Virus record (IMG/VR): IMGVR_UViG_3300049259_000073 | Coordinates: 1 to 36,341 of that record | DNA: 36,341 nt | Direction: 5' to 3' (one strand) | Origin: a virus | Shown here: piece after piece, positions 9,615 through 29,716 of the stretch | Layout: every line of letters begins with the position of its first letter | Position numbering within the stretch: the first letter of the stretch is position 1 | Translations under genes and position numbers: made by a program | The notes under the pieces: generated by a model | What the model was told of the DNA's origin: nothing | The model's database searches: none | What the model saw: the letters and a program-made list of their open reading frames with translations, nothing else

Positions 9615-10147
9615 AGCGCCCGTCCGCCGCCCTGGTCGCCCACTGGTACGCCGAGGCCGCAGCCAGTGGCTTCCACGACCTGGAGACGGGCGACAAGCTG
9701 TCGAACCGCGGGACCCCGACGCGGACCGGCGTCATCGAGCAAGCGGCGTACTACGAGAAGATGGCAGCGGCGGAACCGACGCGGCTGGCAGCTCTGCCGC
9801 CCATGGCCGCGCGCATCTGGGCGCTACACGTCGCGAAGGTCCCGATACGCGGCATCGCCTCCCGGTTGCGCCATTCGTTGCGTGGGCGCGCTGGTGGGCG
9901 GTTTGAGAGGGTGCGCAAAAGCATCATCGAGACCCGGCGAGCGCTGCTCGGTAATCAGGCGCGCGAGAGTGAGCAAGTGGACGAAAGGGAGCAATGCGAA
10001 ACAGCAAAGCCGTTGCGAATGTTGCGAAGCCTGGACCTGGACACGCAGACGCTGGTCGAGTTGATAGCGCTGCTGAGCGGTCAGACTCGGCGGAAGCGCT
10101 GCTCACCGACCTCATCAAGCTCGTCAGGACCGACGTGGACCACCTGA
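9611..10147 (+). CDS. putative small terminase, N-terminal reading frame
   Basis: This frame (178 aa to its stop) gives a helical protein with an HTH-like stretch (AARIWALHVAKVPIRGIASRLRH, then a basic helix). It sits a few genes before the large terminase, as expected for a small terminase. The last 25 residues (TRRKRCSPTSSSSSGPTWTT) look out of frame. Third-position G+C is high up to about 10080 and then falls, while the frame of the next ORF becomes GC3-rich. The true product may therefore continue into 9994-10380 through a -1 frameshift. The assignment rests on position and HTH look only. Confidence 0.55.
   Translation: MKRPSAALVAHWYAEAAASGFHDLETGDKLSNRGTPTRTGVIEQAAYYEKMAAAEPTRLAALPPMAARIWALHVAKVPIRGIASRLRHSLRGRAGGRFERVRKSIIETRRALLGNQARESEQVDEREQCETAKPLRMLRSLDLDTQTLVELIALLSGQTRRKRCSPTSSSSSGPTWTT
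9951..9964 (+). promoter_or_regulatory. GTAATC element, copy 1
   Basis: GTAATCAGGCGCGC is identical to three other copies in the late region. This copy lies inside the putative small terminase gene, 43 bases before ATG 9994. It is the only one not 20-22 bases from a start codon, so its role is the least certain of the six. Confidence 0.5.
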
Positions 10148-10380
10148 TTCTCGACGTGGCCGCCAAGAAGCGGCTGCTGTATCCCGACGAGGCCCGCGTG
10201 ATTGCCGGCTACCTGCGGACGCTGTCCGATCACGTGAAGAGCACGAAGCCCAAGGGCGGCAGCGGTGAGGACATGGAGGAGGCCGAGTTGATTGAGGAGG
10301 CGTTAAAGCACCCGAGACTGCGCGAGGCCATGACGGCAGCGATGCAACGAAACACGACGTTTGGAGGAGGGGACGAATGA
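9994..10380 (+). CDS. putative small terminase, C-terminal frame (or separate gene)
   Basis: This open frame starts at ATG 9994 after AAGGGAG (only 2-3 bases spacing) and overlaps the previous gene by 154 bases. The first 30 codons are poor in G/C at position 3, unlike the rest. From about residue 30 (SAEALLTDLIKLVRTDVDHLILDVAAKKRLLYPDEA) it looks like genuine helical protein ending in an acidic region and a flexible tail. Either it is a separate gene with a poor start, or its real N-terminus is the upstream frame. It ends in ATGA with a 21-codon ORF. Confidence 0.6.
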   Translation: MRNSKAVANVAKPGPGHADAGRVDSAAERSDSAEALLTDLIKLVRTDVDHLILDVAAKKRLLYPDEARVIAGYLRTLSDHVKSTKPKGGSGEDMEEAELIEEALKHPRLREAMTAAMQRNTTFGGGDE

Positions 10381-10442
10381 AGAAGACGATCGCACACATG
10401 GAGAAGCTACTGGCGATTGCGCAGAGCGGCGACAGTGAGTGA
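10377..10442 (+). CDS. 21-aa micro-ORF with strong RBS
   Basis: A 21-residue ORF (MKKTIAHMEKLLAIAQ, then SGDSE) starts nine bases after GGAGGAGG, the strongest ribosome-binding site in this stretch. It overlaps both neighbours: its start with the stop before it, and its end with GTG 10435. The product is a single amphipathic helix. It may be a real micro-protein or a translational coupler feeding ribosomes to the next gene. Confidence 0.45.
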   Translation: MKKTIAHMEKLLAIAQSGDSE

Positions 10443-10788
10443 TCTCGCGGTGGTCCGCTACAAAGAGGTGCGGCTGGCGCGCCCGATCGAAGTCTTTCGC
10501 AAGCAGGTGTTCGGCTGGATCGACGTCGACGGCGTGCCCACCATCAACGGCCTGCAAATCATCGCCGCGGTGGACGGCGGCGGGGCGAACCTGGTGCTCA
10601 TCCCCTGGGCGCGCATCGAGTATTGCGTGCGCGGCCTGGACCCGGTGGCCGAGGCCAAGGTGGACGTGGTTGCGGGGATGCTAGCCCCGGCGGTACCGAC
10701 TGCAGACGGTGGTGAAGCCGTCGAGGTGTCCGAGGCGGTGATGAGTGACATCCGGTCGCAGGTGGCGAAGAAGGGGAAGCGACGATGA
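10435..10788 (+). CDS. hypothetical protein (117 aa)
   Basis: This protein starts at GTG 10435 inside the micro-ORF (TTG 10417 is an alternative). The first 70 residues are beta-rich (VRYKEVRLARPIEVF, VFGWIDVDGVPTINGLQIIAAV, NLVLIPWARIEYCVRG), suggesting a small barrel or sandwich. The C-terminal third is acidic, ending in a basic KKGKRR tail. No family is recognised. It belongs to the run of small genes leading into the terminase. Confidence 0.7.
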   Translation: MSDLAVVRYKEVRLARPIEVFRKQVFGWIDVDGVPTINGLQIIAAVDGGGANLVLIPWARIEYCVRGLDPVAEAKVDVVAGMLAPAVPTADGGEAVEVSEAVMSDIRSQVAKKGKRR

Positions 10789-11090
10789 TCGGCCCGATGC
10801 ATGAGGCGCCCGACCCGCTGGATGCGATGCGGTCGGCGCTGGACGCGGCCGAGAAGAGCGGCTACGCACGCGGGACGGCCTTCATTGCCGACCTTGGCCC
10901 GAGCGCATCGAACTATCGCGCCGGCATCGTTCGAAAGAAGACGCTGCAGTTAGAGAAAGACCTGGCCCTGGCACTGAAGGAGAACGCGGAGAAGGACAGC
11001 GAAATCCGCAGGCTCAAGACTGAGCTGGCGTTCGCCTCGGGCCGCGTGAAGAAGGCCATGCGTGAACTGGAAGGGGCGTGTGACCTGTGA
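10785..11090 (+). CDS. coiled-coil hypothetical protein (101 aa)
   Basis: A 101-residue protein starts in an ATGA overlap. Residues 50-95 form a long charged amphipathic helix (TLQLEKDLALALKENAEKD, then SEIRRLKTELAFASGRVKK), predicting a coiled coil. The N-terminal half (DPLDAMRSALDAAEKSGYARGTAFIADLG) is also helical. No family is recognised. It ends in a GTGA overlap. Confidence 0.7.
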   Translation: MIGPMHEAPDPLDAMRSALDAAEKSGYARGTAFIADLGPSASNYRAGIVRKKTLQLEKDLALALKENAEKDSEIRRLKTELAFASGRVKKAMRELEGACDL

Positions 11091-11425
11091 AACCCAAACC
11101 CGTCCCCGCCCTCGACTACAAGCTGCTGACCACGAAGCCGAAGGACGAAAGCACGCCCGAGATGATGGCTCGTCTGCTGGCAGTGCGGGCGCCGGTCCGC
11201 GCCCTGTGCAAGTCACCGCACCTGGCGGCGCTGGTCGATTGCCTGGTCATGCAGAAGGCGACGGCGGTGAGCGTGTGGCGACCCGGCAACAAAGGGAAAC
11301 CCGACGCGGAGTTCCGCCTGCTGATGGTGGACGAAACGACGTACGCCGAAGTCCTGGAGTACCTGCGCGCCGCCAGGGCGACACGGGAGGCAACGCCGGC
11401 CGACTTTGGTGCGGGCGACGCGTGA
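11087..11425 (+). CDS. hypothetical protein (112 aa)
   Basis: A 112-residue protein starts at GTG 11087 (GTGA overlap) and ends in a GTGA overlap with the large terminase. It is a mixed helix/strand protein (MMARLLAVRAPVRALCKSP, then AEFRLLMVDETTYAEVLEYLR). No family is recognised. The position immediately before terL is where small terminases often lie, so it is a second, weaker small-terminase candidate. Confidence 0.7.
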   Translation: MKPKPVPALDYKLLTTKPKDESTPEMMARLLAVRAPVRALCKSPHLAALVDCLVMQKATAVSVWRPGNKGKPDAEFRLLMVDETTYAEVLEYLRAARATREATPADFGAGDA

Positions 11426-12891
11426 AGCCCAGTCCCGCGCGTGCGCTGGCGTCGCTGGTTAGCCGCGCGCGGTTGGGTTCGTTCACGCTCGAAGACTTCT
11501 GCGGCGGCCACACCCCACAGCTCGGCTTCACCAAGGACCGCTCGCCCTACATCCACGTAATGTGTGCGCGCCAGAGTGGCAAGACCCAGGGCGACGGCGG
11601 CATCATGTTAGACAACGGCCTGAACGCGCCGGGCAGTACGAACCTGTTTCTTGGGCTCAACGGCACGGCGGTGCGCACGTCGGTGTGGGAACCGGTCTGG
11701 AAGAGCCACCTGTTTCACCGCTACCACCTGCCCGACTGGCACAACGAGACGCGCATGCTGACCGCGTTCCCAAACGGGGCGCGCGTGCTGTTTGCCGGCA
11801 CCGACGACATGCGCCACGTCAAGAGCTACCTCGGTAACCGACTGGCGAACGGCGTGGTCATCATCGACGAGGCCCAGGACCAGAGCGACGCCGTCCTGCG
11901 GTACATCCTGACGGTCCTGCTGCCGCCGATGTTGACCAGCACGAGCCGCGTGATTCTCTCCGGCGTGCTGCCCGACGTGCCCGCGGGCTACTTCTACGAG
12001 TTGGCGGCGCCGGGCGGCAACGGCTGGAGTCACCACGAATGGGGACGGGCCGCCAACGTGCACACGCCGAACGCCATGGCCGAGTTGGCCGAGTACATGC
12101 GGCTGCACAACCTGGCCGAGAGTGACCCGCAGATTCAGCGCGACTGGTATATGCGAAGGGCGTGGGACATGAACGCAACGGCCTACCGGTACGAGACGCA
12201 GCGGAACGGCTACCTACCCACGCGGCCAGCCTGGGCCGACGACGTCACGCCCGACAGCGGGCGCGTCATCGCGGCGGTCCCGCACGACGGCATCGACCGG
12301 TTCACGGTGGCCATCGACCCCGGCAGCGCCGACCGCAGCGCCGTCGAGGTGTGGGGCTGGGGTGACACGACCGAGGAGATTCAGCACGTCTTCGACTGGT
12401 CCAGCGAGCGCAACGCCCGGCTGAGCTGGAGCCAGATTGCGAAGGTGCTCAAGGTCATTCAGGACAACTTCGACCCCGAGTGCTGGTTCTACGACGCCGG
12501 CAGCTCGAAGAACGAGCTGGACACGTTCCAGGCCGACTATGGCATCCCGGTGATCAAGGCGGCCAACAAGGGCGACCTACCCGGCCAGGTGCGCCGCGTG
12601 AACGACGTGCTCCAGCAGGGGCGAGCCAAGGTGATGATCGGCTCGAAGCTGGAGGAGGATTACCTGAAGGCCCGCTGGGACACAGAGGCGCGCAGCCGTG
12701 GCCAATGGAAGTGGGCACCGCAGTGGCACCCCGACCCCAGCGAGGCGGCTCGGTATGCGCTGGCCGGCTACTTCAACAGCTTCCAACCGGCAGGATTGTC
12801 GCTGTCCGAAGGCGAGCGCATCGCCCAGGCGCAGCGGTTCCCGAAGCGCAGCGAGTTCGACGACCTTGGCGACATGTGGACGGAGGACTGA
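11422..12891 (+). CDS. terL: terminase large subunit
   Basis: This 489-residue packaging ATPase/nuclease has Walker A CARQSGKT (48-55) and Walker B VVIIDE (145-150), with the catalytic E150. A coupling-motif region follows (VILSGVLPD). The RNase H-like nuclease domain has acidic residues D299 (AIDPGS), D358 (FYDAGS) and D438 (HPDPSEAARYA). GTG 11422 is chosen because the longer frame from 11062 lies inside earlier genes. It converts ATP hydrolysis into DNA translocation into the procapsid and cuts the DNA. The packaging type (cos or pac) cannot be read here. Confidence 0.95.
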   Translation: MKPSPARALASLVSRARLGSFTLEDFCGGHTPQLGFTKDRSPYIHVMCARQSGKTQGDGGIMLDNGLNAPGSTNLFLGLNGTAVRTSVWEPVWKSHLFHRYHLPDWHNETRMLTAFPNGARVLFAGTDDMRHVKSYLGNRLANGVVIIDEAQDQSDAVLRYILTVLLPPMLTSTSRVILSGVLPDVPAGYFYELAAPGGNGWSHHEWGRAANVHTPNAMAELAEYMRLHNLAESDPQIQRDWYMRRAWDMNATAYRYETQRNGYLPTRPAWADDVTPDSGRVIAAVPHDGIDRFTVAIDPGSADRSAVEVWGWGDTTEEIQHVFDWSSERNARLSWSQIAKVLKVIQDNFDPECWFYDAGSSKNELDTFQADYGIPVIKAANKGDLPGQVRRVNDVLQQGRAKVMIGSKLEEDYLKARWDTEARSRGQWKWAPQWHPDPSEAARYALAGYFNSFQPAGLSLSEGERIAQAQRFPKRSEFDDLGDMWTED

Positions 12892-12892
12892 C

Positions 12893-12913
12893 GTAATCGC
12901 CCGCGCCTTGGCG
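12893..12913 (+). promoter_or_regulatory. GTAATC element, copy 2 (GCCC variant)
   Basis: The 21 bases starting GTAATCGCCCGCGCC are identical to 20475-20495. The element begins two bases after the terminase stop, and its first base is 20 nt before GTG 12913. No Shine-Dalgarno lies in the usual window of that GTG. Confidence 0.55.
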
Positions 12914-13152
12914 TGGACGACCCAAGGCAACTCGCCCAACTCATAAAGCTTCTGCGCAAGAATGGCGTCAGAAGGTACCAAAATGGCTCGTTTTTAGTTG
13001 AGTTTGGCGATGGCTCGCTGCCGCCCCGCTCCCGCGGCAAGGCCGACCTTGACCCGCTCGACGAGGACCCGAAGGACGCGGCACACGCCGAGGAAGAGGA
13101 CCTGTCCGTAGACGGTGACGGCGTGCCTGCGGCGATGCGGCCGGTGATGTGA
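12913..13152 (+). CDS. small acidic hypothetical protein (79 aa)
   Basis: A 79-residue protein starts at GTG 12913. The N-terminal 30 residues form a basic helix plus strand (LAQLIKLLRKNGVRRYQNGSFLVEF), followed by a strongly acidic, probably disordered tail (DLDPLDEDPKD, then EEEDLSVDGDG). It lies between terminase and portal and ends in a TGATG overlap with the portal. Its start has a GTAATC element instead of an obvious ribosome-binding site. It could be a minor head or assembly factor. Confidence 0.65.
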   Translation: MDDPRQLAQLIKLLRKNGVRRYQNGSFLVEFGDGSLPPRSRGKADLDPLDEDPKDAAHAEEEDLSVDGDGVPAAMRPVM

Positions 13153-15056
13153 TGGCCAACGACGTCACTACGAATCGTTGGTGGGATGAGACGTCGCTGC
13201 TCGGCGGCGAGACGAAGGCGCGCGCCCTGGTCAACGTCTGCAAGGCCATCAGCATGAACCCCATCGTGGTGCGCGACCGCCAGTGTGACCTGCGCATGGC
13301 GCGGCTCTACGAGAACGACGCCAGCATCAGCAGCCTGTACCAATGGGGCGGCGCGACGGTGTCAGTCCGCCAGCCGGACGACGGCTACGGCGCCCAGCCC
13401 TGGAACGAACTGCGGGCCTGCGCCGAGGCAGCGGCTGCCCAGGTGGCTGGCAAGAAGCCACGCACCAAGTTCATCACCAGCGGCGGCGACTTCAAGGAGC
13501 GCGAGAAGGCCGACCTGCTGACGCAGTTCACCGACGCGATCCGCGCCGAGACTGGCCTCAGTGACATCGCCCAGGACGCCTTCGTTGACGCCGAGGTGTT
13601 CAAGTACGGCGTCGTCCAGTGCTATGCCGACCGCGACCGCGTGGCGTATCAGCGCGTGCTGGCCGGCGAAATTCTGGTGGACCCGTCGGAGGGCATGTTC
13701 GGCAAGCCGCGCAGCATCCACCGCCGCCGGCCGGGCGACAAGGACCTGGTTATCGCCCAGTTCGTCGACGGCAACGACAAGCTGACAAAGGCGCAGAAGG
13801 TCAAGCTCGAGAATCAGATCGACAAGGCGCGGGCCATCGAGGGCAGCCGGGGAACGGCGGCGTCTCGCATGATCTGGGTCTACGAGGGTTGGCACCTGCC
13901 GACGCACGAGGGGGCCGACGACGGGCGCCATGTGCTGGCGGTGGACGGCGTCGACGACGCGCTGATTGACGACCCGCACAAGCGCCAGCGCTTCCCGCTG
14001 CTGTTCTTCCGGTGGTCCAAGGCGCTGACGGGGTTCGGCGGCAGGTCGCTGGCCGAGATCGCCAGCTACACGCAGCTCGAAATCCGCCGGTTGCTGGAGA
14101 AGATTGCGCGCGGCGAGCGGCTCATCTGCGTTCCGCACTTGGCGCTCAAGCGCGGCTCCAAGATTCAGAAGAACATCAACAACGACATCGGCTCTTACAT
14201 CGAGTACACCGACACCCCGCCGGGGTTCGTCGTGCCGGGCGCGTTCGCCCCCGAAGTGTACGCGCAGCTTGAGCGCCACTGCGTCAAGGTCTGGGAGTTG
14301 GCTGGCGTGTCAAAGACCTTCGGCACGGGCCAGAAGCCCGCCGGTGTTATCAGCGGCCCCGGACAGCGAGAGACGCAGGACATTGCGTCCGCCCGCTTCA
14401 CGCTGGTTCAGCAGCGCTGGGACCAATTCAACGTCGACCTTGACCGCGCCGGCATCGACTGTGCCGTTGACATCTACGGCGAGAAGAAGAGCTACGAAGT
14501 GTCGGCGAACGACACGAAGCTCCTGCGCAAAATCGACTGGAACCAGATCAAGCTGGACGAAAACCAGTACGTCATGCTGCCCTACCCCACGTCGCTGCTG
14601 CCGACCACGCCCGGAGCGAAGGTGGAGACGGCGAAGGACATGATGGCCAGTGGCCTGTGGGACCGAACGGAAGCCAAGCTGGCCCTGGGCGATCTCGACA
14701 TCAAGGGCGCGACGGACCTGGACCTGGGGCCGCGCCGCGACCTGGAGCGCATGCTCGACGGCATGCTGCGCGACGCGAAGTACGAGCCGCCTGAGCCGTG
14801 GATGGACATGGACCTGGCGCGCGCGTTGACGCAGAAATACCTGGGCATGGGCCGCGCCGATAAGGCGCCGCCGAAGAACCTCGACTTGCTGCACCGGTTC
14901 CTAGACGACCTGGGCGAGATGACCGCGCCCCCGCCGGCCGCACCGATCGTTCCCGGTGGCGTTGACCCAACGCTGGTGCAGGCGCAGACGGCGCTGGCCG
15001 GAGCGCGAGCGTCGGCCATCGGGCCGGGGCAGCCGGTCATGCCGATCGGGGGGTGA
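13152..15056 (+). CDS. portal protein (podovirus-type)
   Basis: A 634-residue protein lies directly after terminase and before scaffold and capsid, the expected place and size for a podovirus portal. It is mixed alpha/beta. A long central helix region (LAEIASYTQLEIRRLLEKIARGE-like) precedes the 'FGTGQKPAGVISGPGQRET' loop, which may be the tunnel-loop area. The C-terminus is Pro/Ala-rich. ATG 13152 (TGATG overlap) is preferred to the adjacent GTG 13149. The dodecameric portal is the DNA gate and tail attachment site. The assignment is by context and architecture, not by a diagnostic motif. Confidence 0.82.
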   Translation: MANDVTTNRWWDETSLLGGETKARALVNVCKAISMNPIVVRDRQCDLRMARLYENDASISSLYQWGGATVSVRQPDDGYGAQPWNELRACAEAAAAQVAGKKPRTKFITSGGDFKEREKADLLTQFTDAIRAETGLSDIAQDAFVDAEVFKYGVVQCYADRDRVAYQRVLAGEILVDPSEGMFGKPRSIHRRRPGDKDLVIAQFVDGNDKLTKAQKVKLENQIDKARAIEGSRGTAASRMIWVYEGWHLPTHEGADDGRHVLAVDGVDDALIDDPHKRQRFPLLFFRWSKALTGFGGRSLAEIASYTQLEIRRLLEKIARGERLICVPHLALKRGSKIQKNINNDIGSYIEYTDTPPGFVVPGAFAPEVYAQLERHCVKVWELAGVSKTFGTGQKPAGVISGPGQRETQDIASARFTLVQQRWDQFNVDLDRAGIDCAVDIYGEKKSYEVSANDTKLLRKIDWNQIKLDENQYVMLPYPTSLLPTTPGAKVETAKDMMASGLWDRTEAKLALGDLDIKGATDLDLGPRRDLERMLDGMLRDAKYEPPEPWMDMDLARALTQKYLGMGRADKAPPKNLDLLHRFLDDLGEMTAPPPAAPIVPGGVDPTLVQAQTALAGARASAIGPGQPVMPIGG

Positions 15057-15119
15057 TCGCGAACGGCATTCCCGAATCGAGGCCGAACGGATCGCTAGGG
15101 GTGAGCCCGCGCGCAAACG

Positions 15120-15133
15120 GTAATCAGGCGCGC
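15120..15133 (+). promoter_or_regulatory. GTAATC element, copy 3
   Basis: GTAATCAGGCGCGC lies at the 3' end of the 85-base gap after the portal gene. Its first base is 22 nt before ATG 15142 of the scaffold gene. The leader has no clear Shine-Dalgarno. The rest of the gap (15057-15119) holds no gene. Confidence 0.55.
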
Positions 15134-15141
15134 TCGGGTGC

Positions 15142-16170
15142 ATGGCTGATGAACCCACTGCGTCGCCCGACACTGCGCCCGTAACCGCCGCCGAAACGCC
15201 GGCCCCCGCTGCTGCGCCCGCCAAGGCTGCGCCGCCGCTGGACCGCGTTGCCGCGTTCCTGGCCAAGCAGGGCGAAGACGCGCCGGCTGAAGGCGACGAA
15301 GAGAAGACGCCGACGCCGGCCGAACTCGACGCCAAGGACGCAAAAGAGGGCGGCGACGCCGAGAAGCCGGCCGAAGATCCCGGCGAGAAGGTACCCGACC
15401 TGGCTGCCCAGCGCCGCTCGTTCGCCGCCCTGTCGCGGCAGCAGAAAGAGCTCAAGCGCCAAGAGGCCGCCCTGGGCGACGTGCGCACCAAGGCGCAGCA
15501 GTTTGACCAGCTCGGCGCCCAATGGGAGGCCGACCCGGTTGCCGTCATCGCGCAGCTGATGCGCATGCCCGGCCAGCGCGAGTTGGCGGTCAACAAGTTT
15601 CTCGAAGGCTACATCGCCCGCGGTGGCGCTGGTGGCCCGAAGGAGCCCGGCGACGCAGAGCGCATCGCGGCCCTGGAGAAGAGGCTTCAGGACGGCGAAC
15701 AGGCGCGCATGACCGCCGAGCGCGAGCGCGTGATCGAGGGCAACAAGTCCCAGATGCGCCAGATGGTTACCGCCGCCGGCGACCGCTTCGACCTGCTCAA
15801 CGCCTATGGCCTGCACGATCAGGTGTGGGACAACATGGTCGCGTACTACGCCGCCAACCAGGCCGAAATCGAGGCCCGCGGCATCTCGCTGGACCCGTTG
15901 CAGTTCGCCGAGAAGATCGAAAAGGAGCTGGAAGCCGAGGCCCAACGGGTCGCCGCTCGCTCGAAGAAGATTCAGTTTGGTCGCAGCACCCCGACCGATA
16001 AACAGGGCGCGCCCGCTGGCATTCCGAGAGTCGCAGCGCCAGCAGCGACGGCAAGAACACTGACCAACAGTCAAGTGTCGACCGGGCCAGCGCCGAAAGT
16101 AAACGGCGCACCGAGAGAGACACTGGAGCAGCGCCAAGCGCGCGTGCGCCGGGAAATGAATCTCTCGTAA
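15142..16170 (+). CDS. scaffolding-like protein
   Basis: A 342-residue protein lies between portal and capsid. The Ala/Pro/Glu-rich disordered N-terminus (about 1-95) is followed by charged helices and coiled coil (AAQRRSFAALSRQQKELKRQ, then AERIAALEKRLQDGEQARM). A conserved-looking helical segment (NAYGLHDQVWDNMVAYYAAN) precedes a basic C-terminus (ETLEQRQARVRREMNLS). High charge, low aromatic content, a basic C-terminal helix and position are typical of podovirus scaffolds, which template procapsid assembly and exit during maturation. Confidence 0.8.
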   Translation: MADEPTASPDTAPVTAAETPAPAAAPAKAAPPLDRVAAFLAKQGEDAPAEGDEEKTPTPAELDAKDAKEGGDAEKPAEDPGEKVPDLAAQRRSFAALSRQQKELKRQEAALGDVRTKAQQFDQLGAQWEADPVAVIAQLMRMPGQRELAVNKFLEGYIARGGAGGPKEPGDAERIAALEKRLQDGEQARMTAERERVIEGNKSQMRQMVTAAGDRFDLLNAYGLHDQVWDNMVAYYAANQAEIEARGISLDPLQFAEKIEKELEAEAQRVAARSKKIQFGRSTPTDKQGAPAGIPRVAAPAATARTLTNSQVSTGPAPKVNGAPRETLEQRQARVRREMNLS

Positions 16171-16197
16171 GTCCGCGTCGGCCAGCAAGGGGCCGTC

Positions 16198-17451: not shown

Positions 17452-17460
17452 CCAATCTGT

Positions 17461-17494
17461 CTCAGCCGGGGCCAGAGCATCGGCCTCGGCTGAG
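17461..17494 (+). terminator. strong stem-loop after the capsid gene
   Basis: CTCAGCCGGGGCC and GGCCTCGGCTGAG can pair over 13 positions with one mismatch around the 8-base loop AGAGCATC. It starts nine bases after the capsid stop. No T-run follows, so full intrinsic termination is doubtful. A partial terminator or an RNA stabiliser/processing site that sets the capsid-to-downstream ratio fits better. Confidence 0.5.
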
Positions 17495-17517
17495 CAGTCC
17501 AACAAAGGACACTTTCA

Positions 17518-17907: not shown

Positions 17908-17911
17908 GACG

Positions 17912-18181
17912 ATGCACAAGGGGTTCAAGATCAGCATCGTCGACAAGATGCCGCCCCCGTCTGACCTGGGCAGCTCCAGGCGGCGCGGGGGCAGCTACGG
18001 CGACGACAGCGAGGGGGGCGACGATCCGGATGCTGGTGACGACCAGGCCGAGCGCGACGCGCCCGACCGGGACGCCAAGATCAGCGCCGTGGCGGACTTC
18101 TTCTCGATGGGGAAGAAGGGCGACAATGAAGGTGCTCTCAGCGCCCTCGAAGACCTGATGGACATGTGCTCGCGAGGGTGA
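17912..18181 (+). CDS. acidic hypothetical structural-region protein (89 aa)
   Basis: The first 58 residues of this 89-residue protein are disordered and rich in Asp, Gly and Arg (SSRRRGGSYGDDSEGGDDPD). The last 30 residues form a helix pair (ISAVADFFSMGKKGDNEGAL, then SALEDLMDMC). It starts four bases after the previous stop. No family is recognised; it may be an assembly factor or a virion linker. Confidence 0.65.
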   Translation: MHKGFKISIVDKMPPPSDLGSSRRRGGSYGDDSEGGDDPDAGDDQAERDAPDRDAKISAVADFFSMGKKGDNEGALSALEDLMDMCSRG

Positions 18182-18184
18182 GCC

Positions 18185-20463: not shown

Positions 20464-20474
20464 CCGTTCAGGTC

Positions 20475-20495: not shown

Positions 20496-23474
20496 ATGGC
20501 CCTCCAGCCCCAGCCCGTCGTTGTGCCGGTCGGCGGCGGCATCGCCAACGACACGGCCGACAAGCTGCTGCCCAACGGCAAGCTGCTGCTGCTCGAAAAC
20601 AGCTACGTCAACCAGACCGGGAAGCTTCAGAAGCGGCCTGGCTCGGTGGCGATGCCCACCGCGATCGCCCCCAGCGGCGCGCTGGCGAACATCTGGCGCC
20701 TGATCACCCACAAAGATGCCCTTGTCGCCCTGTCAAAGACGGCCGGCATTTTCGCGGGTGGCGCGCCGTCCTATCGCTGGTCGCCAGCCGCGTCAGCGTG
20801 GGCGCCCGCGACCGTCGAAGGACTGGGCGGCAGCGTGTCGAAGCGGGCCACCACCGCACTGTCGCTGCGCAAGCTGCCCTATGCCGGCGCCGGGTTCAAG
20901 ACACACGACCCGGACATGGCCGTCTCTGGCAATTACATCGCCCTGTCTTTCAACGATGGCGGCAGCACCGGGTCGGCCTACGAATTCATCATCGACCGAA
21001 CGACGGGCAAGGTCATCTACAAGAACATCGTCTCTGGCAGCCGGCAGCGTGTCCTGCTGGTCAATGGGGCGTTTGTGTTCACGTGGGTAAACTGGGCCGA
21101 CAACAAGGTCTATTTCGATAAATGGACCGTGGCGAACCTGGCCACGGTCGGAACGCCGACGCAGACATCGGTAGCCGCCAGCGCCCACACGACCAATCCA
21201 TTCCTGGACGCAATGGCAACGGGAGCCGACACGATCGCGGTGGCGTACCAAAGAGCTGACAATACCGTCCACGGCATCCAATACACAGTCAGCACGGGCG
21301 TCGCCAGCGCAACGTTTCAATATCGCGACAGCGCGGTGGCGACCATCGCCGCTTCACAGTGTCTCGGCTGGGCCGCGCAGATTTTCGCGACGTCGCCGGT
21401 CCTGGTGGTTGCCGACGCGACAGCTGGTGTAAAGGGACATATTTTTGCCAGCGGGGTAGCCTCTCCGGCTACGACGTCAGCGGTAATAGACGCCGGCGCC
21501 ACAGCCAGCGTCAGAAACATCACCGGCGTGACAGTCTCGGCGGCTAATTACAACGTCTTTTACGAGGTCACCGCATCACCGACTTATTCAACGTCCATCA
21601 AGGTCGGTAAGAACATCGGCGGCGTCGTCACCTTGGCAGTCTGGCAGCGCTCTGTCGGCCTTCGTTCTCGCCCCATCGCTGGCCCCGACGGCGCGACCTA
21701 CCTGGTCGGCGGCTACAACTCGACGACCCAGCCGTCATTTTTCTTGTTTCGCGCCGACGTGGACCCGACTGCAAACACTCTCAACCCGCCATCGGCGCGA
21801 ATCCTCACTTGGCAGGCCGAGGGACAGACCACCAGGGCCGGCGCCCTTGTCTCGGTCGTGTCTGTCACCGGCGGGTTGGCAGTGTCCCTGCCGATCAAGA
21901 CCCGGATTGAGTCGAGCGGTGGGACAGGGGTGTACTTCGACACCGGGGCGGCGCTCATGCAAATCGGATTCGACGATGTGACCCTGGGGCGCCACCGCGA
22001 GTCCGCCGACGTCACCTACGTACCAGGCGCGATGCTCATGGCCTTCGATGGTGACGAGTACACCGAGGCGAACCAGCACGTTTACCCAGAGGGGCTGACC
22101 GCGGCGTCCATCGCTGCCGGCGGCGCCCTGGTGGTCGGCGGCGTGTATAATTACAAAGCCGTTTACCGCTGGTTTGACTTCCAGGGGCGCCTCCATCGGT
22201 CGACCCCGTCGGATGCGGTTCAGCTCACGCTGGCTGCGGCCAGCGACACCGCTCAGGTCGTGGTCCCCAACGATCGTCTATCGTCGGTCCAAGACAACCG
22301 CCTACAGGTTGAGCTGTATCGAACCATCAACGGCGGGACGGCTTATTTTCGTGTTGCGACCACGGGCGGGGTCGTTTCCAGCGACACTGTTACATTCAGC
22401 GACGGCGTCTCTGACACTAATTTGCAGTCGGGCGAGCTTCTTTACACGTCGGGCGGTGTTCTTCCATCTCAGCCAGCCCCCGCGCTGTTCGCGATCGAGC
22501 AGTTCGATCAGCGCCTGGTGGGCATCGACGCTGAGAACCGCTCCCTGATTCGCATGACGTCGCAGTTCGTCGACGGCGTGGCACCCGCCTGGAATGAGAA
22601 TCTGACCATCCGCCTCAACACCCAATGGGGCGATGCGACGGGCGTCGTGGCGATGGACGACAAGCTGCTCATCTTCTTTCGCAACGCGATTTACTACATC
22701 AGCGGCGCCGGGCCGAACGCGTCGGGCCTGGGCACGTACAATAGTCCCGCGCTCATCGCCAGCGGCACCGGGTGCGCCGAGAATCAGTCGAACTCGATTA
22801 TCTACACCGGCCGCAGCGTGATGTTCCTGGCGGACGTGGGCATCCAGGAGATCAGCCGGGGCCTGGCCATCACGGACAAGGGCATGCCGGTGCAGAAGTA
22901 CACCGACGCGGGCGTAGTGGTGACCGCGGCGATCCAGCACCCGAAGGTCAGCCAGATCCGCTGGTACACCACGGGCGGAACGACGCTGGTCTACGACTAC
23001 CTGCACGAGGTGTGGAGCGTCTTCACCGGACAGGCGTCGGTCACGGCGGCGATGTGGGCGCAAACACCCGTCTACGCCAACACCAACATCGTCCTTGCCG
23101 AAGCGGCGGGCGTCTTCACCGAAAACGCCGTCGCGTACGCGCAGAAGATCACATCGCCCGACCTGGCGCTGGCGGGGCTGGACAACTTCTTTCGCCTGTA
23201 CGCCCTGCACGGCGTCGGGGAGTGGTTGTCCGCCCACACGCTGGCCATCACGCTGGTGTACGACTATGACGCGGCCAACCCGGTCAACGTCACCGTCACG
23301 CCCAACAACCTGTGGGAGTGGGCTTACGAAAACGCCCGCAAGTGCACGACGGTGCGCGTGACGCTGTCGGACGGGGCGTGTACCGGGGCGGGTTTTTCGA
23401 TCGAGGCGCTGGCGTTTGAGATCGGGGTCAAGCCGGGCCTGCGGCGGTTCAGCGACGACAAGCGGGCCCAGTAA
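20496..23474 (+). CDS. tail nozzle / tail tubular B-like protein
   Basis: This 992-residue protein is almost all beta, with many repeated blade-like segments. Examples are FDQRLVGIDAENRSLIRMTS, GVVAMDDKLLIFFRNAIYYI, SIIYTGRSVMFLADVGIQEI and VSQIRWYTTGGTTLVYDYLH. The pattern suits a beta-propeller nozzle like T7 gp12 or P22 gp10. It would close the short tail and contact the receptor. The position after the adaptors supports this. ATG 20496 is preferred to TTG 20490 because it keeps the 20-22 nt spacing from the GTAATC element. Its stop lies within the next GTAATC copy. Confidence 0.82.
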   Translation: MALQPQPVVVPVGGGIANDTADKLLPNGKLLLLENSYVNQTGKLQKRPGSVAMPTAIAPSGALANIWRLITHKDALVALSKTAGIFAGGAPSYRWSPAASAWAPATVEGLGGSVSKRATTALSLRKLPYAGAGFKTHDPDMAVSGNYIALSFNDGGSTGSAYEFIIDRTTGKVIYKNIVSGSRQRVLLVNGAFVFTWVNWADNKVYFDKWTVANLATVGTPTQTSVAASAHTTNPFLDAMATGADTIAVAYQRADNTVHGIQYTVSTGVASATFQYRDSAVATIAASQCLGWAAQIFATSPVLVVADATAGVKGHIFASGVASPATTSAVIDAGATASVRNITGVTVSAANYNVFYEVTASPTYSTSIKVGKNIGGVVTLAVWQRSVGLRSRPIAGPDGATYLVGGYNSTTQPSFFLFRADVDPTANTLNPPSARILTWQAEGQTTRAGALVSVVSVTGGLAVSLPIKTRIESSGGTGVYFDTGAALMQIGFDDVTLGRHRESADVTYVPGAMLMAFDGDEYTEANQHVYPEGLTAASIAAGGALVVGGVYNYKAVYRWFDFQGRLHRSTPSDAVQLTLAAASDTAQVVVPNDRLSSVQDNRLQVELYRTINGGTAYFRVATTGGVVSSDTVTFSDGVSDTNLQSGELLYTSGGVLPSQPAPALFAIEQFDQRLVGIDAENRSLIRMTSQFVDGVAPAWNENLTIRLNTQWGDATGVVAMDDKLLIFFRNAIYYISGAGPNASGLGTYNSPALIASGTGCAENQSNSIIYTGRSVMFLADVGIQEISRGLAITDKGMPVQKYTDAGVVVTAAIQHPKVSQIRWYTTGGTTLVYDYLHEVWSVFTGQASVTAAMWAQTPVYANTNIVLAEAAGVFTENAVAYAQKITSPDLALAGLDNFFRLYALHGVGEWLSAHTLAITLVYDYDAANPVNVTVTPNNLWEWAYENARKCTTVRVTLSDGACTGAGFSIEALAFEIGVKPGLRRFSDDKRAQ

Positions 23475-23484
23475 TCAGGCGCGC
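23471..23484 (+). promoter_or_regulatory. GTAATC element, copy 6
   Basis: GTAATCAGGCGCGC overlaps the nozzle stop codon (TAA 23472-23474). Its first base is 22 nt before ATG 23493. The sequence up to the start has no Shine-Dalgarno. Confidence 0.55.
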
Positions 23485-23492
23485 GATGACAG

Positions 23493-25607
23493 ATGGCCGT
23501 CTATCAACAGTCCTGGACCATCAAGGGGCCGCAGGATTACGTCGACGTGGTCGGCAAGGACGGCCACATATACCGGGTTCCGTCAGGACATGGGGCCGAC
23601 GTCCAGCAGGAGGCCGACAACCCCAAGAACCCGACGGGCGTGCCAATCAAGGACCTGGGCGTTGCGCCAGCCGGCAAGACGAGGACGAACCCCGATGGGT
23701 CAACGTGGACATGGAATGGGCAGTCATGGGATCAAACATCGCCACCGACCAGGCCAGCCGTGAGTGAACCGGCGCCCGCCCCGGCTCCCAATCTGCCACC
23801 CGGCTCCACAAGGCCAAACTCCGACGGATCGTCCTGGGTCTGGGATGGCAAATCGTGGGCGCTCAAGGGAGCAGATCCCAACAGCCCGTTCGCGTCGCCC
23901 GCAGCGCCAGCAGCGCCGACCACGCCCGCCCCCGGATGGAGCGCCGGGACCTGGGCCGGTCCGCCGCCCGCGCCTGCCGCGCCCGCTGTTCCAGGGGAGC
24001 CAGCCCCGACCACATGGGTCGGACAGCCAAATTACAACCTCAGCCCCCAGTCCGTTGCGGGACTGAAGGGCGGCGCCGCGCCGATGCCCGCGCCTGGGGC
24101 GTTCCCGTCGCCGACCTACACGCCCGCGCCGCCCGACCCGTCGACCATGCCGATCAACTTCGGCGGCGCACAGCCGACCTTCGACGGCGTGAACCAGCAG
24201 GCCAGCGACGTCACGGCAGGTCTCCGCGCCCAACTCGCCGGCTTGGCCCCGCGGGCAGCCCCGCAGGCTGGCGCGCCACCCCCCGCCCAAACCACGCTGG
24301 CCGACGCCGGCACCCTCCAGCGGGCCGGCGACATCAGCGCCGCCCAGGCCGGTGGTACGCAGCTTCAGCGCGTCGGCAACATCACGGCGGCCAGCGCCGC
24401 CCCGACGTCCCTGGCCCGCGTGGATCCCATCACCGGCGCCACCATCGACCAGGGCGCCTCGAACGAGACCCGCGCCCAACAGGAAACGTCCCTAGCCGGC
24501 CTGCGCGCCGCCGCCACCGGCGCCGTTCCCAGCGCCGCCGAGCTCCAGCTTCGCCAGACGACCGACCGCAACATCAAGAACCAGTACGCCCTGGCCGCCG
24601 CCCTCCAGGGCCGCAGCGCTGGCGGCGCCCTCAAGCAGGCCAGCGACGCCACCGGCGATCTCGACGCCCAGGCAGCGGCGGACGCCGCCGTGTTGCGCGC
24701 CAAGGAGCAGAGCGACGCTCGCAACGCCGAATCCGCCGCCCTGTCGGGCGTGCGCGGCCAGGACATCGGCGTTGCGACGTCGCAAGCCGGCCTCACCCAG
24801 GGCGCCCAGGTGCAGAACCAAAACACCGGCGTCCAACAGAACACCACCGCCGCCAATCTTCAGCAGAACAATCAGCAGTTCAACGCCGGGCTCAAGCAGG
24901 CCGCCGACATCACGAACCAGGGCGTCGGCGTCACGCAGAACGCGACCCAGTTCAACGCGGACACCGACCTGTCGAAGTTCAACGCCGGACTGCGCCAGGG
25001 CGCGGACATCCAGAACCAGAACACCGCGGCGGGCGAGAACAAGACGCAGTACCAGGGCAACCTCGACGTCTCGACGACGAACGCGAACAACGCGACCGGC
25101 GTGTCGAAGTTCAACTCCTCCCAGGCGCAGGCGCTGGCCATCCAGAACACGGAAAACCAGCTCAAGCAGACCCAACTCGATGACACCCAGAAGCAGGTCG
25201 TCATGAACGCGATGCTCGTCGCCCAGGGCCAGCAGATCCAGGGCGTGACGAACGCGGGGGCGTATCAGAACACCGTCGCCGGCCTGAGGATCTCGCAGCA
25301 GCTCGCGAACCAGGCGAAGACGGCGGCAGAGCTTCAGTTCGCCAACGGCTTGATCGGGACGTTCATGGGCGCCATCGCCGCATACGCCGCAGCCATGCAG
25401 AGCGGCGGCGCCAACGCGCCGGTGACGATCCCAGGTGTGTCGCCTGGCACGACCAGCAGCGGCGGCACCCCCGCCAGCACGCTTTATCCGCAGGGCGGCG
25501 GCGTCGGCGGGACCGATCGCGGCGGCGGCCAGACCACTGACCAGAACACGGACGAACAGGGCAATCCCATCGGGGAGACCCCCACCGGCCAGGGCGGCGA
25601 CCAGTGA
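23493..25607 (+). CDS. putative ejection (internal virion) protein 1
   Basis: Residues 1-150 of this 704-residue protein hold two copies of an aromatic motif of form P/S-D-G-S-x-W-x-W-x-G-x-S-W (about 66-79 and 109-122) in Pro-rich linkers. The middle is Ala/Gln/Asn-rich, with repeated 'A-G-L-x-Q-x-A-D-I-x-N-Q' and 'L-Q-R-x-G-x-I' units predicting long helices. A hydrophobic segment near the C-terminus (LIGTFMGAIAAYAAAM) and a Gly/Thr-rich tail follow. Low complexity, helix content and place after the nozzle match podovirus ejection proteins, which form a channel across the host envelope. The assignment is by context. Confidence 0.65.
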   Translation: MAVYQQSWTIKGPQDYVDVVGKDGHIYRVPSGHGADVQQEADNPKNPTGVPIKDLGVAPAGKTRTNPDGSTWTWNGQSWDQTSPPTRPAVSEPAPAPAPNLPPGSTRPNSDGSSWVWDGKSWALKGADPNSPFASPAAPAAPTTPAPGWSAGTWAGPPPAPAAPAVPGEPAPTTWVGQPNYNLSPQSVAGLKGGAAPMPAPGAFPSPTYTPAPPDPSTMPINFGGAQPTFDGVNQQASDVTAGLRAQLAGLAPRAAPQAGAPPPAQTTLADAGTLQRAGDISAAQAGGTQLQRVGNITAASAAPTSLARVDPITGATIDQGASNETRAQQETSLAGLRAAATGAVPSAAELQLRQTTDRNIKNQYALAAALQGRSAGGALKQASDATGDLDAQAAADAAVLRAKEQSDARNAESAALSGVRGQDIGVATSQAGLTQGAQVQNQNTGVQQNTTAANLQQNNQQFNAGLKQAADITNQGVGVTQNATQFNADTDLSKFNAGLRQGADIQNQNTAAGENKTQYQGNLDVSTTNANNATGVSKFNSSQAQALAIQNTENQLKQTQLDDTQKQVVMNAMLVAQGQQIQGVTNAGAYQNTVAGLRISQQLANQAKTAAELQFANGLIGTFMGAIAAYAAAMQSGGANAPVTIPGVSPGTTSSGGTPASTLYPQGGGVGGTDRGGGQTTDQNTDEQGNPIGETPTGQGGDQ

Positions 25608-27196
25608 GCGCGCCCGGCGTCGACTTCAGCGACCCGGCGTTCGACCCGACCGCCTTGCGCCGGCGCAACCTGGCGCTCGCCAGCGGCATCATCTCGCCGC
25701 CAGGAGCGCCCATGCCGGGCTCGCCCAGCGCCCAGGACATCGCCACCGACCAGGCCGCCGAGGCTGGCGCGCAGCCTGCCCCCGCCGCCGCCCCGACGCC
25801 CGCCGACCTCGTGGTGATGCTCAAGGACAAGGGCACCCGCGCCGCCCTGTCCAGCAACAGCAGCACGACCACCAAGGTTTCGAAGGAGTCGAAGGCGGCC
25901 GGCGCGGCCGAAGTTGCCGCAATTGCGGCCGAGAAGCCGATCGCCGACCAGCAGCAGGAGATCGGAGAGGACAACGCCCAGGCGCGCCAGGACGCTGCCA
26001 ACGGCGACGTGCTGGCCATCCAGCAGCAGCAGCGCGACCAGGCCGCCCTGGCCGCCGTCCATGATGAGATCCGCGCCAAGAAACAGGCAGCGCTTGACGA
26101 CGCCATCCAGGCGCACGCAGCCGCCACGCCCGGCGACTTTTGGGCCAGCCAGCCCGACGGGGCGCAGGTCCATGGCGCGATCGCCGTGGCGCTGGGGCAG
26201 CTCGGCGCGGGCCTCCAGTCGATGGGCGGCGGCAACGGCCACAACGCGGCGCTGGACATCCTGAACCGCCGCCAGGACCAGTTTTACGCGCTTCAGAAAG
26301 AGAAGCTGGACCACACCAAGGACAACGTGCTGATGGCCCGCGCTGGCGTGAAGGACGCCGACGAAGCGCGCCAGATCGCGCAGACCACGCTGGGCGCGAA
26401 GTACATTCTCGGCCTGGAGGCCACGAAGGCGCAGCTTGCGCAAGGGCTGGCCGCCCAGGGCAAGAGCCAAGCCGAGGTCGATGCGGCGCTGAAGAAGGCC
26501 GGGCTTGACGAGAAGATCGCGGCGCTGAGGGTCCAGCTGACCACGCCGACGAACACGCAGGTCACCAGCAGCTTCAACGGCACGGCGGCGCTTGGCGCGC
26601 TCGACGGCGCCGTGAAGGCGGGCCAGGCCAAGGCGAAAGCCGGCGGCAGCCTCGATTTCTTCGACCCGGAGACGGGAGAGAAGCTTGGATCGGCGCGCAC
26701 CACGCGCGACCTGGGCGTGGCATCGAAGACGCTGGAGGCGACGAACGTCGTCAAGGGTGACGTCAAGAACCTGCGCGACTTCTACGCCGCCAACCAAGGC
26801 CGCATCTTTTCCCCGGAAAAACGAGAGACGTTAGAGTCGTTGCGCAACACTCTGACGGGCCACATCCTCACGATGAACAACCAGAGCGGCAGCGACTTCA
26901 AGATCAAATTCGACGCCGGGATGGTGCCCCACGCGGGCGACATTTTGCAGATGAACCAGAACGCCACGCCGAAGCTGGACATCCTCGACAACGAGATCGC
27001 CCACATCCGCGACACGACGCTGCGGGCCCGCGGGATCACCGGCTCGCCGTCCGAAAGCTCCGCCGTCGGCAACCCCACCGGCGCGCCGGCATCGACCGCG
27101 GCCAGCGGACCACCTCCAGGCTCTCAGCGCGGCACGTACCGCGGCAAGGCCGGGTATCTCACCGCGGACGGTGTCTTTCACGCCGACGGGGAATAG
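25604..27196 (+). CDS. putative ejection (internal virion) protein 2
   Basis: This 530-residue protein starts at GTG 25604 in a GTGA overlap. It is Ala/Gln-rich with long helices (DQQQEIGEDNAQARQDAANG, RQDQFYALQKEKLDHTKDNV, KKAGLDEKIAALRVQL). A Gly-rich hydrophobic stretch (IAVALGQLGAGLQSMGGGNG) is a possible membrane-interacting part. A more globular region about 370-470 and a short C-terminal domain (RGTYRGKAGYLTADGVFHAD) complete it. The order and composition resemble the internal core proteins of P22/T7-like phages. No enzymatic motif is seen. Confidence 0.68.
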   Translation: MSAPGVDFSDPAFDPTALRRRNLALASGIISPPGAPMPGSPSAQDIATDQAAEAGAQPAPAAAPTPADLVVMLKDKGTRAALSSNSSTTTKVSKESKAAGAAEVAAIAAEKPIADQQQEIGEDNAQARQDAANGDVLAIQQQQRDQAALAAVHDEIRAKKQAALDDAIQAHAAATPGDFWASQPDGAQVHGAIAVALGQLGAGLQSMGGGNGHNAALDILNRRQDQFYALQKEKLDHTKDNVLMARAGVKDADEARQIAQTTLGAKYILGLEATKAQLAQGLAAQGKSQAEVDAALKKAGLDEKIAALRVQLTTPTNTQVTSSFNGTAALGALDGAVKAGQAKAKAGGSLDFFDPETGEKLGSARTTRDLGVASKTLEATNVVKGDVKNLRDFYAANQGRIFSPEKRETLESLRNTLTGHILTMNNQSGSDFKIKFDAGMVPHAGDILQMNQNATPKLDILDNEIAHIRDTTLRARGITGSPSESSAVGNPTGAPASTAASGPPPGSQRGTYRGKAGYLTADGVFHADGE

Positions 27197-28936
27197 ATGG
27201 CCGGCGGCATCAAGCTCAGCCCCGACGAACTGAAGCAGTTCCAGCCGGCGACCACAGGGGTGAGGCTCTCGCCCGCCGAGATGGCCGAGTTCAAGCCGGA
27301 GCCGGGTGCCGGCGAGTCAGCCGGCCGCGGGGTGCTCCAGGGCGCATCGCTTGGCTTTGGCGACGAGGTGGCGGCCGGCGTCGATACGCTGGTGTCCAAG
27401 ATTCCCGGCGTGCGCGCGGTGGCCAACGCGATCCAGGGTGAGAACCACGGCGGCGCGCTGCCGCTGGACAACCCCGATCTGACGTACCAGCAGCGCCGCG
27501 ATGCCTACCGGGCCAAGAACGCCGAGGCCCAGCAGGCCAACCCCGTCGCCTACGGGGCGGGCGAGGTCGGCGGGGCGCTGGCCACCAGCTTCGTTCCCGG
27601 CGTGGCGCCAGCGCGCGGCGCGGGCCTCGCGGCGATGGCTGGCAAGGCGGCTCTTGTCGGCGGCGCGAACGCCCTGGGCAGCAGCGAAGCCGACCTGACG
27701 AAAGGCGAGTTCGGTCAGGCGGCGATCGACACGGGCACAGGCGCGGCGATCAGCGGCGTGACGGCCGGTGCGCTGGGTGCGGCCGGCAAGGCGCTCACCG
27801 GCGGCGCCGAGAAGCGCGCCACGAAAGCGCTGGTGCAGCGCACGCTCACGAACGAGGGCGAGACAGGCGGCACGGGCGGCAAGATTCTGCGCAAGGTGAA
27901 CACGCTGGCCGACGGCAAGGTGGAAGCGGCCGCGCAGCGGGCGGCGGGCGTTGCGGAGGAGAACGTCCAGCCGGCGCCGCTGTTGGATCTCTATGCCGAC
28001 AAGGCCAACCGTCCGATCTTCGCCCGCAAGACGGGCACCGCCATCGCCCACGCCGAAACGCGCCTGGGCGAGCTGGGCGAGGAGAACGCGCAGCACTACC
28101 AGCAGATCGAAAAGGCCGTCGGGTCGGTGCGCCTGGGCGACGTCACCGACCAGCTAGGCCAGAAGATCGAGCAGCTCCGCGCCGACCCAAGCGGCGGCAA
28201 GGAGATGGTGATTAAGGGGCTGGCGGCCATCAAGCAGGAGATCGAAGAGAACGTCGGCTCCGCGGGCGAGGCTGGCGGCGCGTTCAACCCCGACAAGACG
28301 ATCAGCTGGGAGGCCATGCGCCACCGGGTCACGAACGCCCAGGCGACGGCGGGCGCCGGACTGGGCCAGCTTTCGCCGTCGACGGCGGTCAAGGCGGCCC
28401 GCGAGGCCAGCCAGACCATGAAGCAGATCCTGGACGAGCATCTCCAGGTGGCGGCCGACATCGACCCCGGACTGTCGAAGGCCGTCGACGCGATCCGCGC
28501 CAACAACAAGCAGATCTACGGCATCGCCACCATCAAGGAGGCGCTCGCCGCTCGCGCCGAGAAGGAGGCCGGCGGGTCGAAGAACCTCACGAGCATCCTC
28601 CAGCACAGCGCTGCCGCCAGCGTGGGCGCCGCGGTGGGCCTGGGCGCGCACAGCGCTGGCCTGGGGCTCGCGATCCCGGTGGCGGCCTACGTCGCCCCCC
28701 GCGCCGCGAACGCCGCCAACATCGCCCTGGCGCAGCTCGTGCGCGCCGCCGGCAACGGGTCGGTGACGGCGCAGCTGATTCAGCAAGCGATCGAGGCCGG
28801 CGTGCCGCGCGCTGGCGCAATCGCCGCCGCTGGCCTTGCCAATGGCAACCCCACCGGCGCGCCGGCGCCCACGCCGATCCCACCCGCCCCGCCGCCGCTT
28901 CAGCCGCCGCTAGGCATGCCGCTGGCCGGGCGTTAG
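27197..28936 (+). CDS. putative ejection (internal virion) protein 3
   Basis: A 579-residue protein starts at the ATG immediately after the previous stop. The N-terminus (LSPDELKQFQPATTGVRLSP) is followed by GRGVLQGASLGFGDEVAAGV and Gly/Ala-rich hydrophobic helices (about 115-195), then charged helices (about 230-440). A second Gly/Ala hydrophobic region (AAASVGAAVGLGAHSAGLGL) and a Pro-rich tail complete it. The 'QGASLGFGDE' signature is frequent in large phage structural proteins that carry membrane-active parts. Its 3' end overlaps the end of the leftward next gene by 27 bases. Confidence 0.68.
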   Translation: MAGGIKLSPDELKQFQPATTGVRLSPAEMAEFKPEPGAGESAGRGVLQGASLGFGDEVAAGVDTLVSKIPGVRAVANAIQGENHGGALPLDNPDLTYQQRRDAYRAKNAEAQQANPVAYGAGEVGGALATSFVPGVAPARGAGLAAMAGKAALVGGANALGSSEADLTKGEFGQAAIDTGTGAAISGVTAGALGAAGKALTGGAEKRATKALVQRTLTNEGETGGTGGKILRKVNTLADGKVEAAAQRAAGVAEENVQPAPLLDLYADKANRPIFARKTGTAIAHAETRLGELGEENAQHYQQIEKAVGSVRLGDVTDQLGQKIEQLRADPSGGKEMVIKGLAAIKQEIEENVGSAGEAGGAFNPDKTISWEAMRHRVTNAQATAGAGLGQLSPSTAVKAAREASQTMKQILDEHLQVAADIDPGLSKAVDAIRANNKQIYGIATIKEALAARAEKEAGGSKNLTSILQHSAAASVGAAVGLGAHSAGLGLAIPVAAYVAPRAANAANIALAQLVRAAGNGSVTAQLIQQAIEAGVPRAGAIAAAGLANGNPTGAPAPTPIPPAPPPLQPPLGMPLAGR

Positions 28937-29683
28937 CAGCTTGTCCGTGTCGGGACGTGCCCCCGGCGTCGGGCCGCCCTGCTGCTCCTGCTTCTGCTGG
29001 TAGCCCTTCTGGTATTGCGCCAGCTGGAGCGGGCTCGATGTGTCCTGGCCCAACAGCAGCTTCAACCCCTGCTCCTTGCGCCTGGGCAGTTGCCAGTTCG
29101 CGCCGCGCCCCGATTTGATGTTGGCCAGCACTTCGGGCACCACGTCGCCAAGCAGGCCGTAAAGCTGCGGGTACAGCTGCTGAAACGACCGCACCTGGCC
29201 GCGCGATAGGCAGCCCTCGTTCAGGTCGCGCAGCACCAGCAGCGGGTCGTCGGCCACCTGGTAGACGCGGCGAAAGGCCGCCAGGTCCTGGGCGCTGGGC
29301 TGCACTGGCACCGGGCCCGCCGCCGTGGCGCGCTCGCTTTTGGGCATCAGCGGCTTCAGGTATTCGATGATTCGGGACGCCACGTCGACGGCGCCTCTGG
29401 CCAGCGTTGGATCGCCAATGCCGGCGTGGATCGCGTCGCTCTGGCCGATCGAACCGCTGCCCAGCAGCAGTTTCTTGACCGCCTTGAAGTCGAAAGGCGG
29501 CAAGTCCTCGGGCTCGTCGTGGTCGGCGCTGGTGAGGTACCGCCGCATGAGGTCGCTGACCTTCTTCGGCAGCCGGGCGGCGTCGTCCAGGACGTAGCGC
29601 CACGTGCGGGCGCTGGCGTCTAGGAACTTCTCGATTCCGAGGGTGGTGACGACGAGTTCGGGGGTCGGCGGGGCGGGGTCCAT
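28910..29683 (-). CDS. putative virion-associated protein encoded antisense
   Basis: A 257-residue protein on the minus strand starts at ATG 29683; longer starts upstream would run into the divergent gene. It is helical and well formed (LGIEKFLDASARTWRYVLDD, AFRRVYQVADDPLLVLRDLN, VRSFQQLYPQLYGLLGDVVP), ending in a Gln-rich tail (QYQKGYQQKQEQQ). Proteins with this 'VYPQLY...LLG' pattern occur beside ejection proteins in related phages as I remember them, but there in the same orientation. No function is known. Its 3' end overlaps the converging gene by 27 bases. Confidence 0.72.
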   Translation of the reverse strand: MDPAPPTPELVVTTLGIEKFLDASARTWRYVLDDAARLPKKVSDLMRRYLTSADHDEPEDLPPFDFKAVKKLLLGSGSIGQSDAIHAGIGDPTLARGAVDVASRIIEYLKPLMPKSERATAAGPVPVQPSAQDLAAFRRVYQVADDPLLVLRDLNEGCLSRGQVRSFQQLYPQLYGLLGDVVPEVLANIKSGRGANWQLPRRKEQGLKLLLGQDTSSPLQLAQYQKGYQQKQEQQGGPTPGARPDTDKLLTPGQRHA

Positions 29684-29702
29684 CACCCTGGCGCGGCCGA
29701 TT

Positions 29703-29716
29703 GTAATCAGGCGCGC
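29703..29716 (+). promoter_or_regulatory. GTAATC element, copy 7 position (sixth copy in all)
   Basis: GTAATCAGGCGCGC is followed by GATGG, as at 23471. It lies in the divergent gap between the leftward gene start (29683) and the rightward ATG 29723, which is 20 nt from its first base. It marks the restart of rightward genes after an antisense gene, as at 20475. Although labelled by order along the map, only six copies exist. Confidence 0.55.

Follow-up and report, generated by a model that had tools for sequence, protein, structure and literature searches.

The window analysed here is the whole stretch of DNA, 36,341 bp in length, which is an IMG/VR virus record and derives from an uncultured virus of bacteria. 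Pfam and PHROGs scans of the main genes identify a terminase, and a GDSL lipase-like protein and an M15 peptidase are also encoded. Further genes with an assigned product are as follows.

1568-2332, PDDEXK nuclease related to exonuclease VIII
2935-4014, integrase
6137-6637, Mom-like protein (DNA modification), found here in what is probably an SU10-type temperate virus
6630-8348, DNA helicase
16198-17451, SU10-type capsid protein
18880-19524, SU10-type adaptor
19900-20454, minus strand, leftward gene whose product has a signal/lipobox-like N terminus and a matrixin (Peptidase_M10) match; an antisense insert amid rightward virion genes

The terminase, the SU10-type capsid and adaptor, the integrase, and ends that seem to close on each other point to a phage that is probably temperate and podovirus-like, its particle being of a distant SU10 type. 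A 12-nt tandem array of one kind, encoding a protein repeat of the AVNGAVGDAV type, lies at each end of the record (1-376 and 36065-36341); the genome may therefore be near complete, and it probably closes within one repeat gene. The frame is not kept when reading across the end junction, and repeat units are possibly missing or collapsed. The leftward matrixin gene looks moron-like. Near the right end, at 34647-34698, GTTGGGAC occurs three times (two plus, one minus) between the next gene and an open reading frame (34164-34625) that has no family match and whose helix-turn-helix likeness is judged by eye. This stretch resembles an early operator or immunity region; it has no relation to the GTAATC element, the subject of what follows.

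That element is short, begins with GTAATC, and is found at seven places in the genome.

9951-9964, plus strand, GTAATCAGGCGCGC; off-pattern, within the open frame 9611-10147 and 43 nt before ATG 9994
12893-12913, plus strand, GTAATCGCCCGCGCCTTGGCG; 20 nt before GTG 12913 of a 79-aa gene in the terminase-portal interval, with a weak Shine-Dalgarno (SD) site
15120-15133, plus strand, GTAATCAGGCGCGC; 22 nt before ATG 15142 of a scaffold-like gene, which is followed by the capsid gene
20475-20495, plus strand, GTAATCGCCCGCGCCTTGGCG; in a divergent gap, 21 nt before ATG 20496 of a tail-like gene (992 aa)
23471-23484, plus strand, GTAATCAGGCGCGC; 22 nt before ATG 23493
29691-29704, minus strand, core copy ACAATCGGCCGCGC; back-to-back with the next copy and 21 nt before ATG 29683, where a leftward gene starts
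29703-29716, plus strand, GTAATCAGGCGCGC; 20 nt before ATG 29723

The six plus-strand copies lie exactly where the first-pass annotation had placed them, and the variant at 12893 and 20475 does have 21 identical bases in common. The copies at 23471 and 29703 agree at 20 of 21 positions. Counted genome-wide on both strands, GTAATCNNSCGCGC occurs six times, always on the plus strand, against an expectation for both strands of 0.013-0.023 (Markov models of order 1-3). If every gapped word of the same shape is considered, six copies of some word are not rare in a GC-rich genome, so the weight falls on position; the significance lies in the expectation for this particular AT-containing word together with its placement. 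The core, AATCNNSCGCGC, has exactly seven copies, namely the six plus the one on the minus strand. The conserved block is GTAATCRSSCGCGC, followed in most copies by NNNGGY, and to the left of GTAATC nothing is conserved across the copies. The 15120 copy is preceded on the plus strand, at a distance of 19 nt, by a weak partial copy, GTGAGCCCGCGCGC (15101-15114).

Where do the copies lie relative to genes? Six of the seven core copies are found 20-22 nt before a start codon, each in the sense of its gene, the leftward gene included; for the starts at 12913, 15142, 20496, 23493, and 29723, the distances are the 20, 22, 21, 22, and 20 nt that had been claimed. Measured from the end of the 14-mer, the start codon follows after 6-8 nt (7 nt for the leftward gene at 29683). 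With about 40 starts in a partly hand-curated gene list, four or more of the seven core copies would by chance lie 20-22 nt ahead of a start with a probability of 3e-10, and six with a probability of 1e-16. The weaker figure, 3e-10, is preferred because only four of the seven pairings rest on an automatic coding-potential gene call (with one start called 3 nt upstream), the others having been read by hand. The leftward gene (29683-28910) has a good coding signal.

The exception is the 9951 copy, which has no start codon at 20-22 nt and is surrounded by weak coding signal. ATG 9994 has its own GGGAG, but little coding support. Across 9611-10380, the coding signal, which is in frame 2 from 9611, passes into frame 1 (at about 10100-10380) without an evident new start, which suggests one gene with a frameshift, due to a sequence error or programmed, and with the 9951 copy inside it.

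The genes that follow the element stand at the heads of blocks. The block from 12913 runs to the portal gene, that from 15142 (scaffold-like) to 19892 and includes the capsid gene, and that from 20496 is the tail gene. Further blocks run from 23493 to 28936 (internal virion proteins), from 29723 onward (distal genes), and leftward from 29683 to 28910. Most of the genes inside the blocks overlap the preceding gene or carry SDs. As the annotation had observed, the 20475 and 29703 copies occupy points where rightward genes resume past leftward ones. At the second of these, the 39-bp gap between the divergent starts 29683 and 29723 (29684-29722) is filled by two back-to-back copies that share 2 bp. 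Packing is equally tight elsewhere: the TAA of the 23471 copy doubles as the stop codon of the preceding gene, and the 12893 copy begins one base after the upstream stop. The element probably switches virion-gene blocks on together.

All five starts said to lack an SD are indeed without a usable one, and so is the sixth, at 29683. Over the -17 to -5 region, the anti-SD duplex energies of the six element genes are weak, at +1.9, -2.5, +1.9, -2.5, -2.5, and -1.7 kcal/mol, compared with a median near -5.5 kcal/mol for the 34 other starts (Mann-Whitney p = 0.0018). A GGGTG is present before 15142 and 29683, too near the start to serve as an SD. Is this simply what happens to starts with similar gaps? 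Six gap-matched starts without the element score from -5.5 to -11.6 kcal/mol, i.e., all have SDs, and the missing SD therefore tracks the element. The companion claim, that neighboring genes without the element have an AGGAGG-type site, was right as to the presence of an SD, but the sites are partial (AAGGGG, AAAGGA, and AAAGGAAG) and not the full AGGAGG.

What kind of signal might this be? The annotation had offered a late promoter, an activator site, or an unusual translation-start signal. A start-linked cis element of some kind is well supported by the copy number, orientation, fixed spacing, missing SDs, and block-head sites, but the sequence picks none of the three. A sigma70-type promoter is disfavored on four grounds: no -35/-10 hexamers 16-18 nt apart occur in 9700-29650; the upstream flanks of the copies have no conserved box or partner element; the DNA at -12..+2 of element starts has a higher stability than that of the other starts (p = 0.004); and the Pfam/PHROGs scans of the main genes detect no phage RNA polymerase or sigma factor. 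We also weighed a T7-like promoter (TAAT at -17, G at +1) but gave it up, as no RNA polymerase gene was seen. A ParB-like protein has a Sigma70_r4 match that is only sub-threshold (E 0.034); as a candidate binding factor, it gave an AlphaFold model of pLDDT 43, which was set aside. The largest frames without a family assignment are genes of the virion blocks.

The reading we tentatively prefer, while giving it somewhat less than an even chance, is that the element is a start-associated sequence that acts at the RNA level in translation initiation, in place of the SD. The steps would be as follows. (i) The element would be transcribed into the mRNA leader, at about -22 to -7 from the start codon of the first gene in each virion-gene block. 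(ii) A trans-acting factor, either a late phage protein or a host RNA-binding protein, or else the ribosome, would recognize GUAAUCNNSCGCGC. (iii) Recognition would permit initiation at the start codon 6-8 nt past the element, doing the job of the missing SD. (iv) Later genes in each block would be reached via translational coupling or their own SDs, and the result would be a coordinated output of virion-gene blocks. A more specific version is doubtful: the lead genes of virion blocks on either strand would have a dedicated non-SD start signal in common, a phage factor would read it, and particle proteins would be made only while that factor is present.

Several observations argue for a role in translation. 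The element keeps the sense orientation even at the leftward gene, and its 6-8 nt to the start is an SD-like distance. All six of its genes are without a usable SD, while the gap-matched genes all have one. It can begin at or 1 nt past an upstream stop (23471 and 12893) with no conserved DNA upstream, and the stable DNA at -12..+2 and the want of a promoter partner box suit a role other than that of a promoter. Five of the seven copies have a weak CGC-N4-GYG hairpin after them, but it fails at 23471, is short at 29703, and is also found in 7.6% of all CGCGC; its 5' paired bases are invariant across the copies, which gives no covariation support. Rfam 15 structured RNAs yield zero matches above the gathering score. 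Against a translation signal stands the 9951 copy, with no start at 20-22 nt, and the 39-nt divergent gap would require both transcripts to begin within the opposite gene. Nor is local mRNA structure at the element starts low (mean of -12.2 versus -10.2 kcal/mol), unlike that of typical open SD-less starts. Pairing to Escherichia coli 16S rRNA, which may not be that of the host, is not above that of shuffles, and the searches turned up no RNA-binding factor and, in the collections covered, no relative.

There are precedents for such a signal in cluster K mycobacteriophages and phage Mu. The start-associated sequence (SAS) of cluster K phages is 13 bp long and has 11-19 copies, which share one orientation and precede starts by 3-7 bp (Pope et al. 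2011, PMC3203893, which also mentions the stoperators of cluster A mycobacteriophages). A role in translation was proposed for it, without proof (PMC3203893), and later papers still describe it so (PMC11373665, PMC12699233). The element resembles the SAS in being a short asymmetric repeat (12-14 bp here) with multiple copies, nearly all in one orientation, and in lying a few nucleotides ahead of start codons, in some cases with an overlap of the upstream stop. However, the SAS consensus, GGGATAGGAGCCC, holds an AGGAG SD core, whereas this element has none and its genes are without SDs; GTAATCNNSCGCGC does not match that consensus, AGGAG included, within two mismatches. SAS copies are mostly in non-structural genes and those of this element in the structural/virion half, the two sequences are unrelated, and the SAS is carried by cluster K phages, while the first 25 kb of the window match no GenBank phage DNA. 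The element is, on these sequence comparisons, SAS-like in placement and not an SAS member. In phage Mu, Com activates mom translation via a start-proximal RNA hairpin (PMC6483171). A start-proximal RNA structure and a phage protein are likewise the mechanism proposed here, and this virus too has a Mom-like gene. Mu has a single target gene, however, the Com motif GAGNNCC is absent from the element, and no Com homologue is seen in this virus. The SAS has been known since 2011, and because it contains an SD core, what it does is not easily told apart from ordinary ribosome binding. The start-associated repeat of this virus occupies the place of a missing SD; it does so on either strand and for the lead gene of every virion block, and this placement makes the predictions of a leader element and of a leaderless promoter easy to test.

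A leaderless promoter is the close rival: it too explains both the spacing and the missing SD, and the sequence alone does not decide between it and a translation signal. The element would in that case be a late promoter whose specificity is unusual; RNA synthesis would begin at the start codon or 1-3 nt ahead of it, and the mRNAs, being leaderless or nearly so, would need no SD. We regard this as possible, though some way from an even chance. Block heads are natural sites for a promoter, particularly at 20475 and 29703, where transcription has to turn rightward again past leftward genes, and the 39-nt divergent gap, which contains just two opposed copies, would become a two-way promoter at 29691-29716. 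The 9951 copy would also make sense, being followed by an ATG (9994) with its own SD, as an ordinary leader would need; that ATG, as mentioned, has little coding support. Leaderless 5' ends are not predicted to be highly structured. On the other hand, the would-be melting zone, CGCGCNNNGGYR, is more GC-stable than other starts, there is no -35 or -10 partner box, and no RNA polymerase or sigma factor is found among the scanned proteins. A parallel exists in phage 7-11 (phiEco32-like), whose late promoters, GTAAtg-(16)-aCTA, are read by a phage sigma factor (PMC8948821). The likeness consists of the GTAA beginning, several copies upstream of late blocks, and the SU10-type capsid and adaptor of this virus. 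Yet the downstream aCTA box is absent, with no CTA 16 nt past GTAATC in any copy, and no phage sigma factor was found. The geometry differs as well: with the element 20-22 nt from the start codon, that of 7-11 would place transcription starts inside genes.

A quite improbable alternative is that the element is an operator for a DNA-binding repressor or activator at block heads. Cluster A stoperators, which are 13-bp asymmetric sites at gene junctions of temperate phages, would be the model. An asymmetric site of 12-14 bp at the gene junctions of an integrase-bearing phage fits well enough, the two copies at 29691-29716 make up an inverted repeat, though an imperfect one (GCGCGGCCGATT-GT-AATCAGGCGCGC), and a copy within an open frame, as at 9951, suits a DNA site. 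Stoperators, however, are not known to lie at a constant distance from starts or to take the place of SDs, while this element is start-spaced and its genes lack a usable SD. An operator by itself leaves the 20-22 nt spacing and the missing SDs unexplained, and the lysogeny-like region at 34647-34698 has a different repeated site. Very improbable, lastly, are neutral or recombination-linker repeats, i.e., junction homology from module shuffling with no regulatory role: the near-identity within the 12893/20475 and 23471/29703 pairs would allow recent copying, but in all copies the similarity goes no further left than GTAATC and gives out near the start codon to the right, the inverted copy has the usual spacing to the gene it precedes, and SD loss at all six starts would be unexpected.

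Does the element occur in other viruses? A near-DNA search of GenBank phages with positions 1-25000 gave no match, and tblastn gave none with the capsid, portal, 27197 gene, and tail gene; with the terminase, it found two Synechococcus phages at 24.6%. Scans that are sensitive to close relatives only detected no relatives in IMG/VR (capsid, terminase, portal, tail, and adaptor), GTDB genomes (integrase and capsid), or plasmids (terminase). The 21-mer has no match in other IMG/VR viruses, and among the matches listed, no other virus searched has repeated copies of the element. GTAATCAGGCGCGC itself occurs in at least 119 IMG/VR stretches, each time as a single copy among the matches listed. A correctly spaced ATGR accompanies the element in 36 stretches, with two or fewer core matches per record, and most of these ATGs open very short frames. 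Because the occurrences elsewhere in IMG/VR are scattered and single-copy, they look like chance.
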